From the NCBI RefSeq assembly GCF_021117425.1, contig NZ_CP088298.1, positions 3,720,001-3,784,000 of the forward strand: 64,000 bases of DNA. Reading direction: 5' to 3'. Positions 7,739 to 11,060 of this stretch are shown one piece after another. Within the stretch, counting starts at the first letter, position 1. Each line of letters starts with the position of its first letter. This DNA is from Brevibacterium zhoupengii (GTDB taxonomy: Bacteria > Actinomycetota > Actinomycetes > Actinomycetales > Brevibacteriaceae). Below the pieces are notes generated by a model that saw nothing but the letters and a program-made list of their open reading frames with translations, searched no databases and was not told the DNA's origin. The translations under genes were made by a program, and so were the position numbers.

Positions 7739-7990
7739 TCAGCGTTCAAGTCGGCCGCCGAAGGCCTGCTCAAGGGGAATGCTTCCGTCCTGCCAGGGGG
7801 TGAGCGCCCAGGCAACCACATACGCGCCGACGCCCAAGACTGGGAGCAGGAACGAGATGAGGATCAACAGGCGCATCAGCCACACGTTCATTCCGGTGGA
7901 TTCGGCGAGACCGCCTGCAATACCGCCGAGAACACGGTCGGGTCCGCGACGGAAGCCAACTTTGCGAATGGAATCAAATAGTTTTCTCAT
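7739..7990 (-). CDS. PspC-domain membrane protein
   Basis: The 83-residue product matches the PspC domain: FRRGPDRVLGGIAGGLAESTG at residues 13-33, then one or two membrane helices at about 40-66 (LILISFLLPVLGVGAYVVAWALTP), then a short polar tail. PspC proteins act in envelope-stress sensing, and the short actinobacterial versions often stand alone. I chose ATG 7990, where the domain begins, over an upstream in-frame start at 8122 whose extra 44 residues look unlike protein. It is convergent with the aldo/keto reductase. Confidence 0.85.
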   Translation of the reverse strand: MRKLFDSIRKVGFRRGPDRVLGGIAGGLAESTGMNVWLMRLLILISFLLPVLGVGAYVVAWALTPWQDGSIPLEQAFGGRLER

Positions 7991-8262
7991 GTCTTCAACA
8001 GTACGCAGAATCTGCGCTCTGCACAGGGGTGCTGACCGTTGAACGGGGATGAGGGAAACCAGAATGACGCTCATCGGTGGCGCTGGCAGGGAAGGGCCAC
8101 CTCGGCGACTATCGGCCTGCAATTCTCGCTATATGAGATCGCGATCACAGGTTTTGGGCGCGCCTTCTCGGGTGCCGCCGGCAAGGGCGGTTACGATTAA
8201 CGAGTTGTGCAACCAATTGTCCGCATCTGCCATCCCAGCGACGCGGCATGGAGGAGTCCGTT

Positions 8263-8427
8263 GTGAAGTGGTTGAAAAAGGCCGTCCTCACGCTCGTCGT
8301 CATTTTTGTGGCGTTCTATCTGTTCAGTCGGCCAGAAGATTCGGCCGAGGCAGTGCGGAACGCTTTCGAAGCAGTGGGCACCGGTGTCGGCTCGCTGGTC
8401 ACTTTCTTCACTTCCCTGTCCGCGTAG
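8263..8427 (+). CDS. 54-residue single-pass membrane peptide
   Basis: This small gene begins at GTG 8263 with GGAGGAG 6 nt upstream and stops at TAG 8425. The product starts VKWLKKAVLTLVVIFVAFYLFSR, a basic N-terminus followed by one membrane helix, and ends in an amphipathic Ala/Val/Gly-rich segment. The gene ends 21 bp before the PH/MarR fusion gene, in the same direction, so the two are probably co-transcribed. No family is recognised. It could be a small partner of the PH-domain protein. Confidence 0.7.
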   Translation: MKWLKKAVLTLVVIFVAFYLFSRPEDSAEAVRNAFEAVGTGVGSLVTFFTSLSA

Positions 8428-8448
8428 CCGCGCAGGAAGCAGCCTGAC

Positions 8449-9741
8449 GTGTTCGGGGCACTGACCGACCCGAGAGTCGAAGATCATCTGATCGCTGAAG
8501 AGGGCGAGATCGTCGTCGACGAAGTTCGCCGCCATTTCCTTGCCTTCGTCTCTCCCACGCTCATCATTCTGCTGGGCCTGGCCGTCGCAGCACTGAGCTT
8601 CACGGTCCCGATCGACTTCGCTTCGATCCCATTGGGAATCGGTGCCGCCATTGCGCTCTTCGGCGTCTACCGTGCACTGTTCGTGCACATGGACCGGTTC
8701 GTCATCACGAACATGCGAGTGTTCCGCATCCACGGGATCTTCACTCAGCACAAGGCCACGATGCCGATGGCGCGTATCCTCGATATCTCGGTCCATAAGC
8801 CCCTGATGGGCCGGATCTTCAGATACGGTCACTTCGTCTTCGAATCTGCTGCCCAGGACCAGGGCCTGCGCGACATCCGCTATGTCGGCCGGCCGGATGA
8901 ACGAGACCTCACTATCCAGACGGTGATTCAGCGCTCCGGACTGCGCTCTGCCATCACCTCGCTCAATTCCAGGGACGAGGACGAAGACGAGGAAATCCTT
9001 GATGGTGACGACCTCGTCACGGGCTCGTCGTCCGATATCGACGCCGACCTGGATATCGATTCCGAGGCCGACACGAATTTCGAATCCGAGGAGGAGCTCA
9101 GGGCCGAACACCAGCCACGCTTCAGCGCCGGCACCGGTCAGTACCCGGCAGTGCGCACCGGAGTCGGCCCGAATGTGGACACCGAAGAGTGGAACACGAT
9201 GGAGTTCAACACCGGTCACGGCTTCAGCGACTCCGAGGAGTTCAGGATCGGCAGCGCCTCACCGGCCTTGAACGATCCGGTCTCGATGGCCGCCAGCGCG
9301 TGGGAGATGCGGTGGCCCGAACGCGACCGGATGCAGACTGCCACCGAACTGATGCGGGCCCACCGCTTCCTCATCGACAGCCTCGATGAGAAGCTGCGCC
9401 CACTGGGGCTCACCTACGCACGCTATGAAGCACTGCTTCTCCTGTTCTTCGATCAGAGAGGCGCTCTCCCTCTCGTCGAACTCACCGACCAACTGCAGGT
9501 CGACACCAGCTCATCGTTCTCCACAGTGCGGTGGCTGGAGGACAACGATCTGCTCGAAAGGGCGCTGGAACCCGGTGACGACGGAGAGGTCTTCGCTGAG
9601 ATCACGCCCAAAGGTCGTGCACTGACTGACAGGGCCAGTCAGATCGTCGCCGATGCGCGCTTCGGCTTGGACACGATGTCAGATGCCGAATGCCGTCAGC
9701 TCACCAACCTGCTGGCCAGGCAACGTCGCATCCGGGACTGA
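8449..9741 (+). CDS. Membrane PH-domain protein fused to a MarR-type DNA-binding domain
   Basis: One uninterrupted frame of 430 residues joins two families. Residues 1-165 are a bacterial PH-domain membrane protein with two helices (about 28-48 and 55-75), then the core with FVITNMRVFRIHGIFTQ and ISVHKPLMGRIFRYG. Residues 165-285 form a very acidic, low-complexity linker (EDEDEEILDGDD and similar). Residues 285-430 form a complete MarR winged helix (ERDRMQTATELMRAHRFL, LGLTYARYEALLLL, then the recognition helix and wing). In other actinobacteria these are, to my knowledge, separate proteins. The start is GTG 8449 with AGGAAG upstream. If the fusion is real, the regulator is membrane-tethered. 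Confidence 0.85.
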   Translation: MFGALTDPRVEDHLIAEEGEIVVDEVRRHFLAFVSPTLIILLGLAVAALSFTVPIDFASIPLGIGAAIALFGVYRALFVHMDRFVITNMRVFRIHGIFTQHKATMPMARILDISVHKPLMGRIFRYGHFVFESAAQDQGLRDIRYVGRPDERDLTIQTVIQRSGLRSAITSLNSRDEDEDEEILDGDDLVTGSSSDIDADLDIDSEADTNFESEEELRAEHQPRFSAGTGQYPAVRTGVGPNVDTEEWNTMEFNTGHGFSDSEEFRIGSASPALNDPVSMAASAWEMRWPERDRMQTATELMRAHRFLIDSLDEKLRPLGLTYARYEALLLLFFDQRGALPLVELTDQLQVDTSSSFSTVRWLEDNDLLERALEPGDDGEVFAEITPKGRALTDRASQIVADARFGLDTMSDAECRQLTNLLARQRRIRD

Positions 9742-9806: not shown

Positions 9807-11060
9807 TCAGACTGTCTCCGGTTGCCGACGCGCGAAGTCCGGAGCGTGCTCGGGAGTGATACCCATGCCGAGGATGCGCGCGGGAATCACGGTCAGCGCC
9901 GGAAACGTTGTCAGCAGCCACAGGACCGGCGCCGGGGGACGAATGACTCCGCCGTTGTGAACGACCGGCTCGATCATCCGGTGGATGCCGCCCTGCAGCA
10001 GCTCGACCGCCTTCGTCGTCAGCAGTCGTCTGCGCTGCACACGCCTGAGCTCACTGGTGGGCACGCGTCCCGACCGCAGCGCCTCCGCCAGCAGACGGGC
10101 TGTGGCCACACCGTCTTGAACCGCCAGATTGACGCCGACTCCGCCCAGCGGACTCATGGCATGGGCCGCATCGCCGATGCACAGCAGCCCGTCGATGAAC
10201 CAGCGCTTGGCCTCATTGCGACGGACTTCGAGGAGCTTCACATCCTCGAGCCGCAGCGCTGCAAGATCGCCTGCCAGCACGGGGAAGGTCTCTGCGACCC
10301 CGCGGCGAAGAGACTCGATCCCCTGCTCACGGAAGCGAGCGTCCTCGCCCTTCGGGATGAGACGAGCCATCTGCACATGACCGTCGCGCGGAATCGCGAC
10401 GAACACATTGCCGCCCTTGGCGCGAGGTGCGATGGATTCGGCCAGCTGTGCCAGGGTGTCGATCCGGAACCACCACACGTCGATCGTCGACCGCAGCTCC
10501 CGCATCGACAGCTGTGCCTCGTCCCGGGCCTTCGACCAGCGACCGTCAGCGGCGACGACGAGTGGCGCCCGCAGCTCGGTCTCACCGTCGGGAGTCTGCG
10601 CATAAACGCCGACGACTCGGTCGCCGTCCCAGATCAGCGAGGTCATTTCGACACCCATGCGCAGATCGAACCCGGGTTCGTCCTCCCCTGCTTTGGCCAG
10701 CAGATTGAGGAAGTCCCACTGTGGTGCGATCGTCATGAACGGATGCGTGGTGTTGAGCCTGGACAGGTCGCCGAGGATGTAGTCCCGACCGTCGTCACCG
10801 GCGAGACTGATGTTGGTCACCTTACGGTGGGTGATGCGAGCGAATTCGTTGTAGAGGCCCAGCTCATCGAGGAGCCGCAGTGTTGATGGATGGATGGTGT
10901 CACCGCGGAAATCGCGGAAGAAATCGGTGTGCTTCTCCAGCACCACAACTTTGACACCACCGCGGGCCAAGAGCAGCCCGGCGACGATTCCGGCGGGCCC
11001 TCCTCCGGAGATGATGCAGTCACAGTCGGCATCGAGTTGGTCGTGCGCAGCGTCTGTCAT
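9807..11060 (-). CDS. FAD-dependent monooxygenase (PHBH-fold, group A)
   Basis: The 417-residue flavoprotein has a dinucleotide-binding GGGPAG at about residues 19-24 and an acidic strand end (VVVLEKH). A DG motif (VVAADGRWSKARD) lies near 185, and the FAD-ribityl motif CIGDAAHAMSPLGGVGVN near 300. These are the three fingerprints of the p-hydroxybenzoate hydroxylase fold. The substrate is unknown; relatives hydroxylate aromatics or oxidise polyketides. It is a single gene between the PH/MarR gene (convergent) and the GT2 gene. There is no ferredoxin or regulator next to it. Confidence 0.85.
   Translation of the reverse strand: MTDAAHDQLDADCDCIISGGGPAGIVAGLLLARGGVKVVVLEKHTDFFRDFRGDTIHPSTLRLLDELGLYNEFARITHRKVTNISLAGDDGRDYILGDLSRLNTTHPFMTIAPQWDFLNLLAKAGEDEPGFDLRMGVEMTSLIWDGDRVVGVYAQTPDGETELRAPLVVAADGRWSKARDEAQLSMRELRSTIDVWWFRIDTLAQLAESIAPRAKGGNVFVAIPRDGHVQMARLIPKGEDARFREQGIESLRRGVAETFPVLAGDLAALRLEDVKLLEVRRNEAKRWFIDGLLCIGDAAHAMSPLGGVGVNLAVQDGVATARLLAEALRSGRVPTSELRRVQRRRLLTTKAVELLQGGIHRMIEPVVHNGGVIRPPAPVLWLLTTFPALTVIPARILGMGITPEHAPDFARRQPETV

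Follow-up and report, generated by a model that had tools for sequence, protein, structure and literature searches.

A bPH_2 membrane protein joined to a diverged SCO5413-type MarR fold in Brevibacterium: a fused gene pair

In part of the genus Brevibacterium, a single gene encodes a bPH_2 membrane protein and a MarR fold of the SCO5413 type, joined through a long acidic linker. The gene was found in the window, i.e. the whole stretch of 64,000 nucleotides of Brevibacterium zhoupengii DNA that was analysed (Table 1). Both families are known, but their arrangement here, in which a pair of genes has become one and the regulator has diverged, was not described in the open-access literature searched. 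The reading favoured here, to which a probability of about 0.6 is given on the basis of sequence and predicted structure, is that an ancestral gene pair was fused and that the MarR fold would act in the cytosol as a module of the PH protein that dimerises or senses a ligand.

Table 1 Features of the fusion locus (positions in the window)
Feature	Position	Strand	Evidence or remark
PspC-domain gene	7739-8086	-	Upstream of fusion, opposite strand
Gene of a 54-aa membrane protein with a single pass (MKWLKKAVLTLVVIFVAFYLFSRPEDSAEAVRNAF...), first of the unit	8263..8427	+	GGAGGAG site, GTG start
AGGAAG ribosome-binding-like site of fusion gene	8434..8439	+	Sequence, 9 nt 5' of GTG
PH-MarR fusion gene	8449..9741	+	Single open frame, 430 aa; GTG start codon at 8449, stop ends 9741
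Transmembrane helix 1 (residues 30-51)	8536..8601	+	AlphaFold helix, pLDDT 90-97; hydropathy
Transmembrane helix 2 (residues 59-81)	8623..8691	+	AlphaFold helix, high pLDDT; hydropathy
bPH_2 domain (residues 83-150)	8695..8898	+	PF03703, E 6.5e-10; dN/dS 0.10
Acidic linker, predicted to be disordered (residues 169-272)	8953..9264	+	pLDDT ~35; 29 D/E, 5 K/R
Linker motif EEWNTMEF (residues 246-253)	9184..9207	+	Invariant alignment columns
MarR fold, SCO5413 type (residues 273-430)	9265..9738	+	Profile and predicted fold
Recognition-helix stretch (residues 352-366)	9502..9546	+	Unfused consensus HxTSVTxxVxRLE; here DTSSSFSTVRWLEDN
Wing EPGDDGE (residues 374-380)	9568..9588	+	D-x-R wing Arg (position 379) replaced
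FAD-binding-domain gene	9807-11060	-	Convergent, downstream of fusion

The fusion gene in Brevibacterium

A preliminary description of this DNA had proposed that one frame joins a PH membrane protein to MarR, and had asked whether the fusion occurs in independent genomes of the genus. Both points were borne out, since an unbroken fusion with no stops was found in 15 of 57 Brevibacterium species. These are the window's own species, twelve with 71-96% identity and two more distant ones with about 58-59%, and among them are Brevibacterium aurantiacum, antiquum, sandarakinum and permense; the protein of B. aurantiacum ATCC 9175 is 96% identical to that of the window. Fifteen species with an intact frame, together with the dN/dS values given below, rule out a sequencing error or a chance open reading frame, and in none of them is the MarR part truncated. 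Two findings had been named in advance as refuting the fusion. The first was the presence of two separate genes in related strains; neither PH and MarR as separate genes nor a stop or frameshift splitting the gene was found in any of the 57 genomes. The second, translation of MarR solely from an internal start, is ruled out because no start codon 5' of the MarR domain is common to all 15 fusions. Two conserved in-frame ATGs (residues 295 and 302) lie within helix 1 and have no ribosome-binding site. ATG251 sits in the conserved linker motif and is missing in one fusion species, so that an extra, shorter product is possible in some species. An antisense open frame of 340 amino acids (window 8197-9219, minus strand) most likely arises from the codon usage of GC-rich DNA.

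The membrane part scores 39.5 bits with the bPH_2 profile (curated cut-off 22), and two transmembrane helices precede the PH domain, as in bPH_2 membrane proteins. Models of the domain itself are of low confidence (pLDDT 35-57), with a strand pattern that is compatible with a PH fold. Two transmembrane helices followed by a single bPH_2 domain make up the YdbS-type architecture (PMC8657885), which the fusion shares with Bacillus subtilis YdbS and Enterococcus DdE. Unlike the fusion, YdbS has no DNA-binding-type domain and works with a partner, YdbT, and DdE/DdF have a role in bacteriocin export, of which no sign was seen at the fusion locus. From the two helices and their flanking charges, the N-terminus, the PH domain and the C-terminal MarR fold are all probably cytoplasmic, which would put the MarR module on the cytoplasmic face, held to the membrane by a flexible tether.

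This tether had been described as a 120-residue acidic linker. It is indeed acidic (29 D/E against 5 K/R), and the length was a slight overestimate, the linker having about 104 residues in the window protein and 68-116 in relatives. Within it, W248, T250 and E252 are invariant in the fusions aligned; the conserved form of the motif is EEWxTMEL, a candidate site for docking or phosphorylation.

The MarR region matches SCO5413 of Streptomyces coelicolor (PDB 4b8x) in profile comparison (E 1e-23), and its predicted fold superposes on that structure with a Z score of 14.9 and an rmsd of 1.9 over 136 residues. This MarR fold, in which dimerising helices 1, 5 and 6 surround a winged helix, is predicted with pLDDT values of mostly 70-96. 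Pfam matches at residues 320-389 remain under the curated cut-offs for MarR (PF01047, 17.9 bits against 24.6) and HTH_27 (19.7 against 22.2), as does MarR_2 (15.4 against 27). The PH-adjacent MarRs of other actinobacteria belong to the same subfamily (E 4e-59 to SCO5413). SCO5413 itself differs from the fusion in being a soluble, stand-alone protein with an HPTSVT recognition helix and a DGR wing; the fusion has neither motif and is joined to a membrane protein. SCO5405 was also considered as a relative and was rejected, as it is a response regulator (PMC3784963); the right relative is SCO5413.

The MarR part is under purifying selection. Pairwise dN/dS had medians of 0.10 for the PH domain, 0.39 for the linker, 0.125 for the MarR part and 0.146 for its winged helix, all of which are rough figures since synonymous divergence is near saturation in several pairs.

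The fusion gene follows the gene of the small membrane protein at a distance of 21 nt. A homologue of this 54-aa peptide, for which no Pfam match was found, is encoded 5' of PH in every fusion locus, as well as in many loci of Microlunatus, Agromyces, Microbacterium and Actinopolymorpha. The PspC gene occurs near the FAD-binding gene in fusion-free species as well, and is hence a neighbour rather than a partner. In two fusion-free species (L198 and L199), what is left of the small membrane peptide, its first 38 residues, is followed directly by the FAD gene; the remnant lies at 4352-4486 in L198, with a stop codon within, and at 4221-4355 in L199. In both, the whole gene has been cleanly lost and there is no split gene, so that they are natural deletion strains. 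Five more non-carriers that were examined have the PspC and FAD genes and neither the PH nor the MarR part. Most Brevibacterium species also possess an unfused MarR paralogue of about 206 amino acids. The unfused SCO5413-type MarR of the same genome (1524488-1524931, L031, outside the window) has an intact wing motif and adjoins an acyl-CoA dehydrogenase-like ORF, which was named by reading its translation and not by a profile search.

Unfused pairs and the origin of the fusion

When GTDB species were scanned with the PH alignment, 161 relatives came up, and the analysis was continued with the best 80. Ten of these 80 are from Brevibacterium and all ten are fusions; among the 70 others, from Propionibacteriales and Microbacteriaceae, none is. 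In 20 of the 70, a separate MarR of the same subfamily lies directly 3' of the PH gene, and in at least 10 of these 20 pairs the start of MarR overlaps the stop of PH (GTGA, ATGA or TGATG). The earlier statement that the families are separate elsewhere thus holds in that they are separate genes outside Brevibacterium, but they are not unrelated, being often adjacent or overlapping in Propionibacteriales. Because of this frequent adjacency and overlap, functional coupling of the two probably predates the fusion. Microlunatus endophyticus (L102) was checked as a second fusion, since its MarR frame has no ATG, GTG or TTG start; a fusion is unlikely there, the probable reading being a CTG or ATC start that overlaps or just follows the PH stop.

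A survey of 148 Propionibacteriales genomes found the PH gene in 111 and an SCO5413-type MarR in 110. MarR lies on the same strand within 300 nt downstream of PH in 16 of the 111 PH-bearing genomes and at 0.3-6 kb in 41; in the remainder it is elsewhere, nearby on the opposite strand (3) or not found. This tally of distances covers 92 of the 111, the omitted genomes being those with no listed MarR. In many loci the pair is accompanied by genes for acetyl-CoA acetyltransferase (thiolase), MeaB, methylmalonyl-CoA epimerase and methylmalonyl-CoA mutase, which suggests that the SCO5413-type MarR subfamily concerns propionate or methylmalonyl-CoA metabolism. The loci L102-L165 hold a conserved unit of the 54-aa membrane peptide, the PH protein and an SCO5413-type MarR, beside thiolase, MeaB and mutase genes.

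The Propionibacteriales pairs (Microlunatus, Enemella, Nocardioides) resemble the fusion in the PH sequence (about 55-71% identity in the loci kept), in the clade of their MarR, in gene order and, in several cases, in the upstream membrane peptide. They differ in that PH and MarR are encoded by two genes, the stop of the one often overlapping the start of the other, and in that MarR has an intact DNA-binding motif. The PH orthologues of Microbacteriaceae have no neighbouring MarR at all. Those without MarR (L107, L109, L136, L141, L168 and others) have a tail that varies but finishes in a conserved stretch (FDPDRTxTAPIDLPR in Microbacterium, NDTAEMPWWR in Agromyces), and this stretch may serve for docking or phosphorylation.

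In the MarR tree, the fusions form a single clade (100/99) inside the PH-adjacent MarRs of Propionibacteriaceae, with Microlunatus endophyticus as their sister (99/92); support for their nesting in the PH-adjacent clade is 99/92 and 100/94. The stem of the fusion clade is long, with 0.94 changes per site, and long-branch effects are possible, yet the PH tree is free of such a branch and likewise places Microlunatus endophyticus as sister, with moderate support (SH-aLRT 89). The MarR half is not a copy of the stand-alone MarR of the genus, which is placed elsewhere in the tree. A phage origin was also considered and rejected: the query used found no relative in IMG/VR, and the PHROG match was weak and to the PH part alone.

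Hence, the fusion gene very probably derives from an ancestral pair of PH and MarR genes, and, judged from trees and gene order, the two were probably gained as a pair and joined in a single event, after which divergence was rapid. The unit of membrane peptide, PH protein and MarR most likely passed from a Microlunatus-like donor to a Brevibacterium ancestor, where a single protein would have arisen once the coupled genes lost the stop that separated them. Synteny and trees support this course of events, in which the direction of transfer, from the Microlunatus-like donor to Brevibacterium, is what we infer. From the conserved neighbourhood together with the fusion, it also appears that the PH protein and MarR acted together before they were joined.

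Loss of DNA contacts and the probable mode of action

The preliminary description had regarded the MarR winged helix as complete, and this stands for the fold but not for the residues that contact DNA, which are replaced in the fusions. In the complex of SCO3205 with DNA, the wing residue Arg98 enters the minor groove and is positioned by Asp96, and Arg, Ser and His of the recognition helix touch DNA (PMC3737563). The fusions were compared with 63 unfused relatives, made up of 20 PH-adjacent, 4 near and 39 stand-alone MarRs, which share a recognition-helix motif, LQVHxTSxT..RL, and a wing motif, D-x-R. The wing Arg at position 379 is present in 63/63 unfused relatives and in 0/15 fusions; in all 15 fusions, Arg362 of helix 4, the recognition helix, is replaced by Trp and the otherwise invariant His at position 352 is lost. 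R371 in beta-2, the wing Asp (80%) and V360 and L363 of helix 4 are kept. Over residues 338-397, unfused MarRs have a mean net charge of +2.9 (stand-alone) or +1.4 (PH-adjacent), as against -6.2 for the fusions; the shift falls in beta-1/helix 3, helix 4 and the wing, and helices 5 and 6 are more basic. Losses at conserved positions were not significantly concentrated in the DNA-binding half (9/20 versus 7/27, Fisher p = 0.22), and some of them could therefore be due to rapid divergence in general.

With the conserved contacts lost and the DNA-facing side acidic, the fused MarR would no longer be a canonical operator-binding repressor, and these replacements make a loss of canonical DNA binding rather likely; an altered specificity, in which the changed helix reads a changed operator, is possible. 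The original proposal of a membrane-tethered MarR that regulates transcription fares poorly here, as the wing and recognition-helix residues of the SCO3205 type are replaced in 15/15 fusions and the DNA face is acidic. On this proposal, the MarR dimer would, like ToxR- or CadC-type regulators, bind a (changed) operator while anchored, and an envelope signal picked up by the PH part would thereby alter transcription. The fold is intact, the winged helix is under purifying selection, the long linker could let the domain reach DNA and the ancestral pair placed a regulator beside a membrane protein; set against the absent wing Arg, the Arg to Trp change, the lost His and the acidic face, these points leave it unlikely.

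Membrane-integrated one-component regulators such as ToxR and CadC have a winged-helix-type domain that is covalently joined to a membrane protein. The fusion resembles them in this respect; their domain is of the OmpR type, whereas that of the fusion is a MarR fold, C-terminal to a PH domain, with its DNA contacts lost. The same loss, together with the variation of linker length, speaks against regulated release, in which proteolysis within the linker would free a soluble MarR to act on DNA; a long, disordered and fast-evolving linker with one conserved short motif would suit such cleavage, and the idea is nonetheless considered quite improbable. It had also been suggested that the acidic linker mimics DNA and blocks the DNA-binding face of MarR in cis. 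Each fusion linker does contain 20-34 acidic residues, but the face to be covered is already net negative and the linker is poorly conserved in sequence and length and evolves fast, which makes the suggestion highly improbable.

A different view is that the MarR part is a passenger, slowly decaying since the fusion, and that the PH membrane protein alone matters. The long stem, a rate in MarR above that in PH, the Microbacteriaceae orthologues with no neighbouring MarR and the loss of the whole gene in two species are in its favour. It is judged improbable in view of the low dN/dS of the MarR part, the absence of truncation in 15 species and the conservation of winged-helix residues among the fusions.

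A MarR part that is kept by selection and has lost its DNA contacts favours the reading as a cytosolic dimerisation or ligand-sensing module. Since the fusion, the fold and the purifying selection on it have been retained, while the DNA-facing side has lost conserved contacts and turned acidic; the module would most likely form homodimers, perhaps sense a ligand and set the state of the PH membrane protein, with information running to the membrane and not to DNA. The ancestral gene neighbourhood allows the guess that the ligand is an acyl-CoA. The more specific proposal of a membrane "pseudo-MarR", i.e. a receptor or dimerisation module of MarR fold that does not bind DNA and controls a membrane protein from the cytosol, is tentative, at a little under even odds; here too the signal would run towards the membrane.

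Significance for the PH and MarR families

The fusion acts as a Rosetta stone, in that it ties a widespread and functionally uncharacterised membrane PH protein to MarR regulators of the SCO5413 subfamily, a link that gene order in Propionibacteriales backs independently. A testable hypothesis that follows from it is mutual control of the PH membrane protein and MarR. The fused form is, in addition, a case of a MarR domain retained by selection after its DNA-binding residues were lost.
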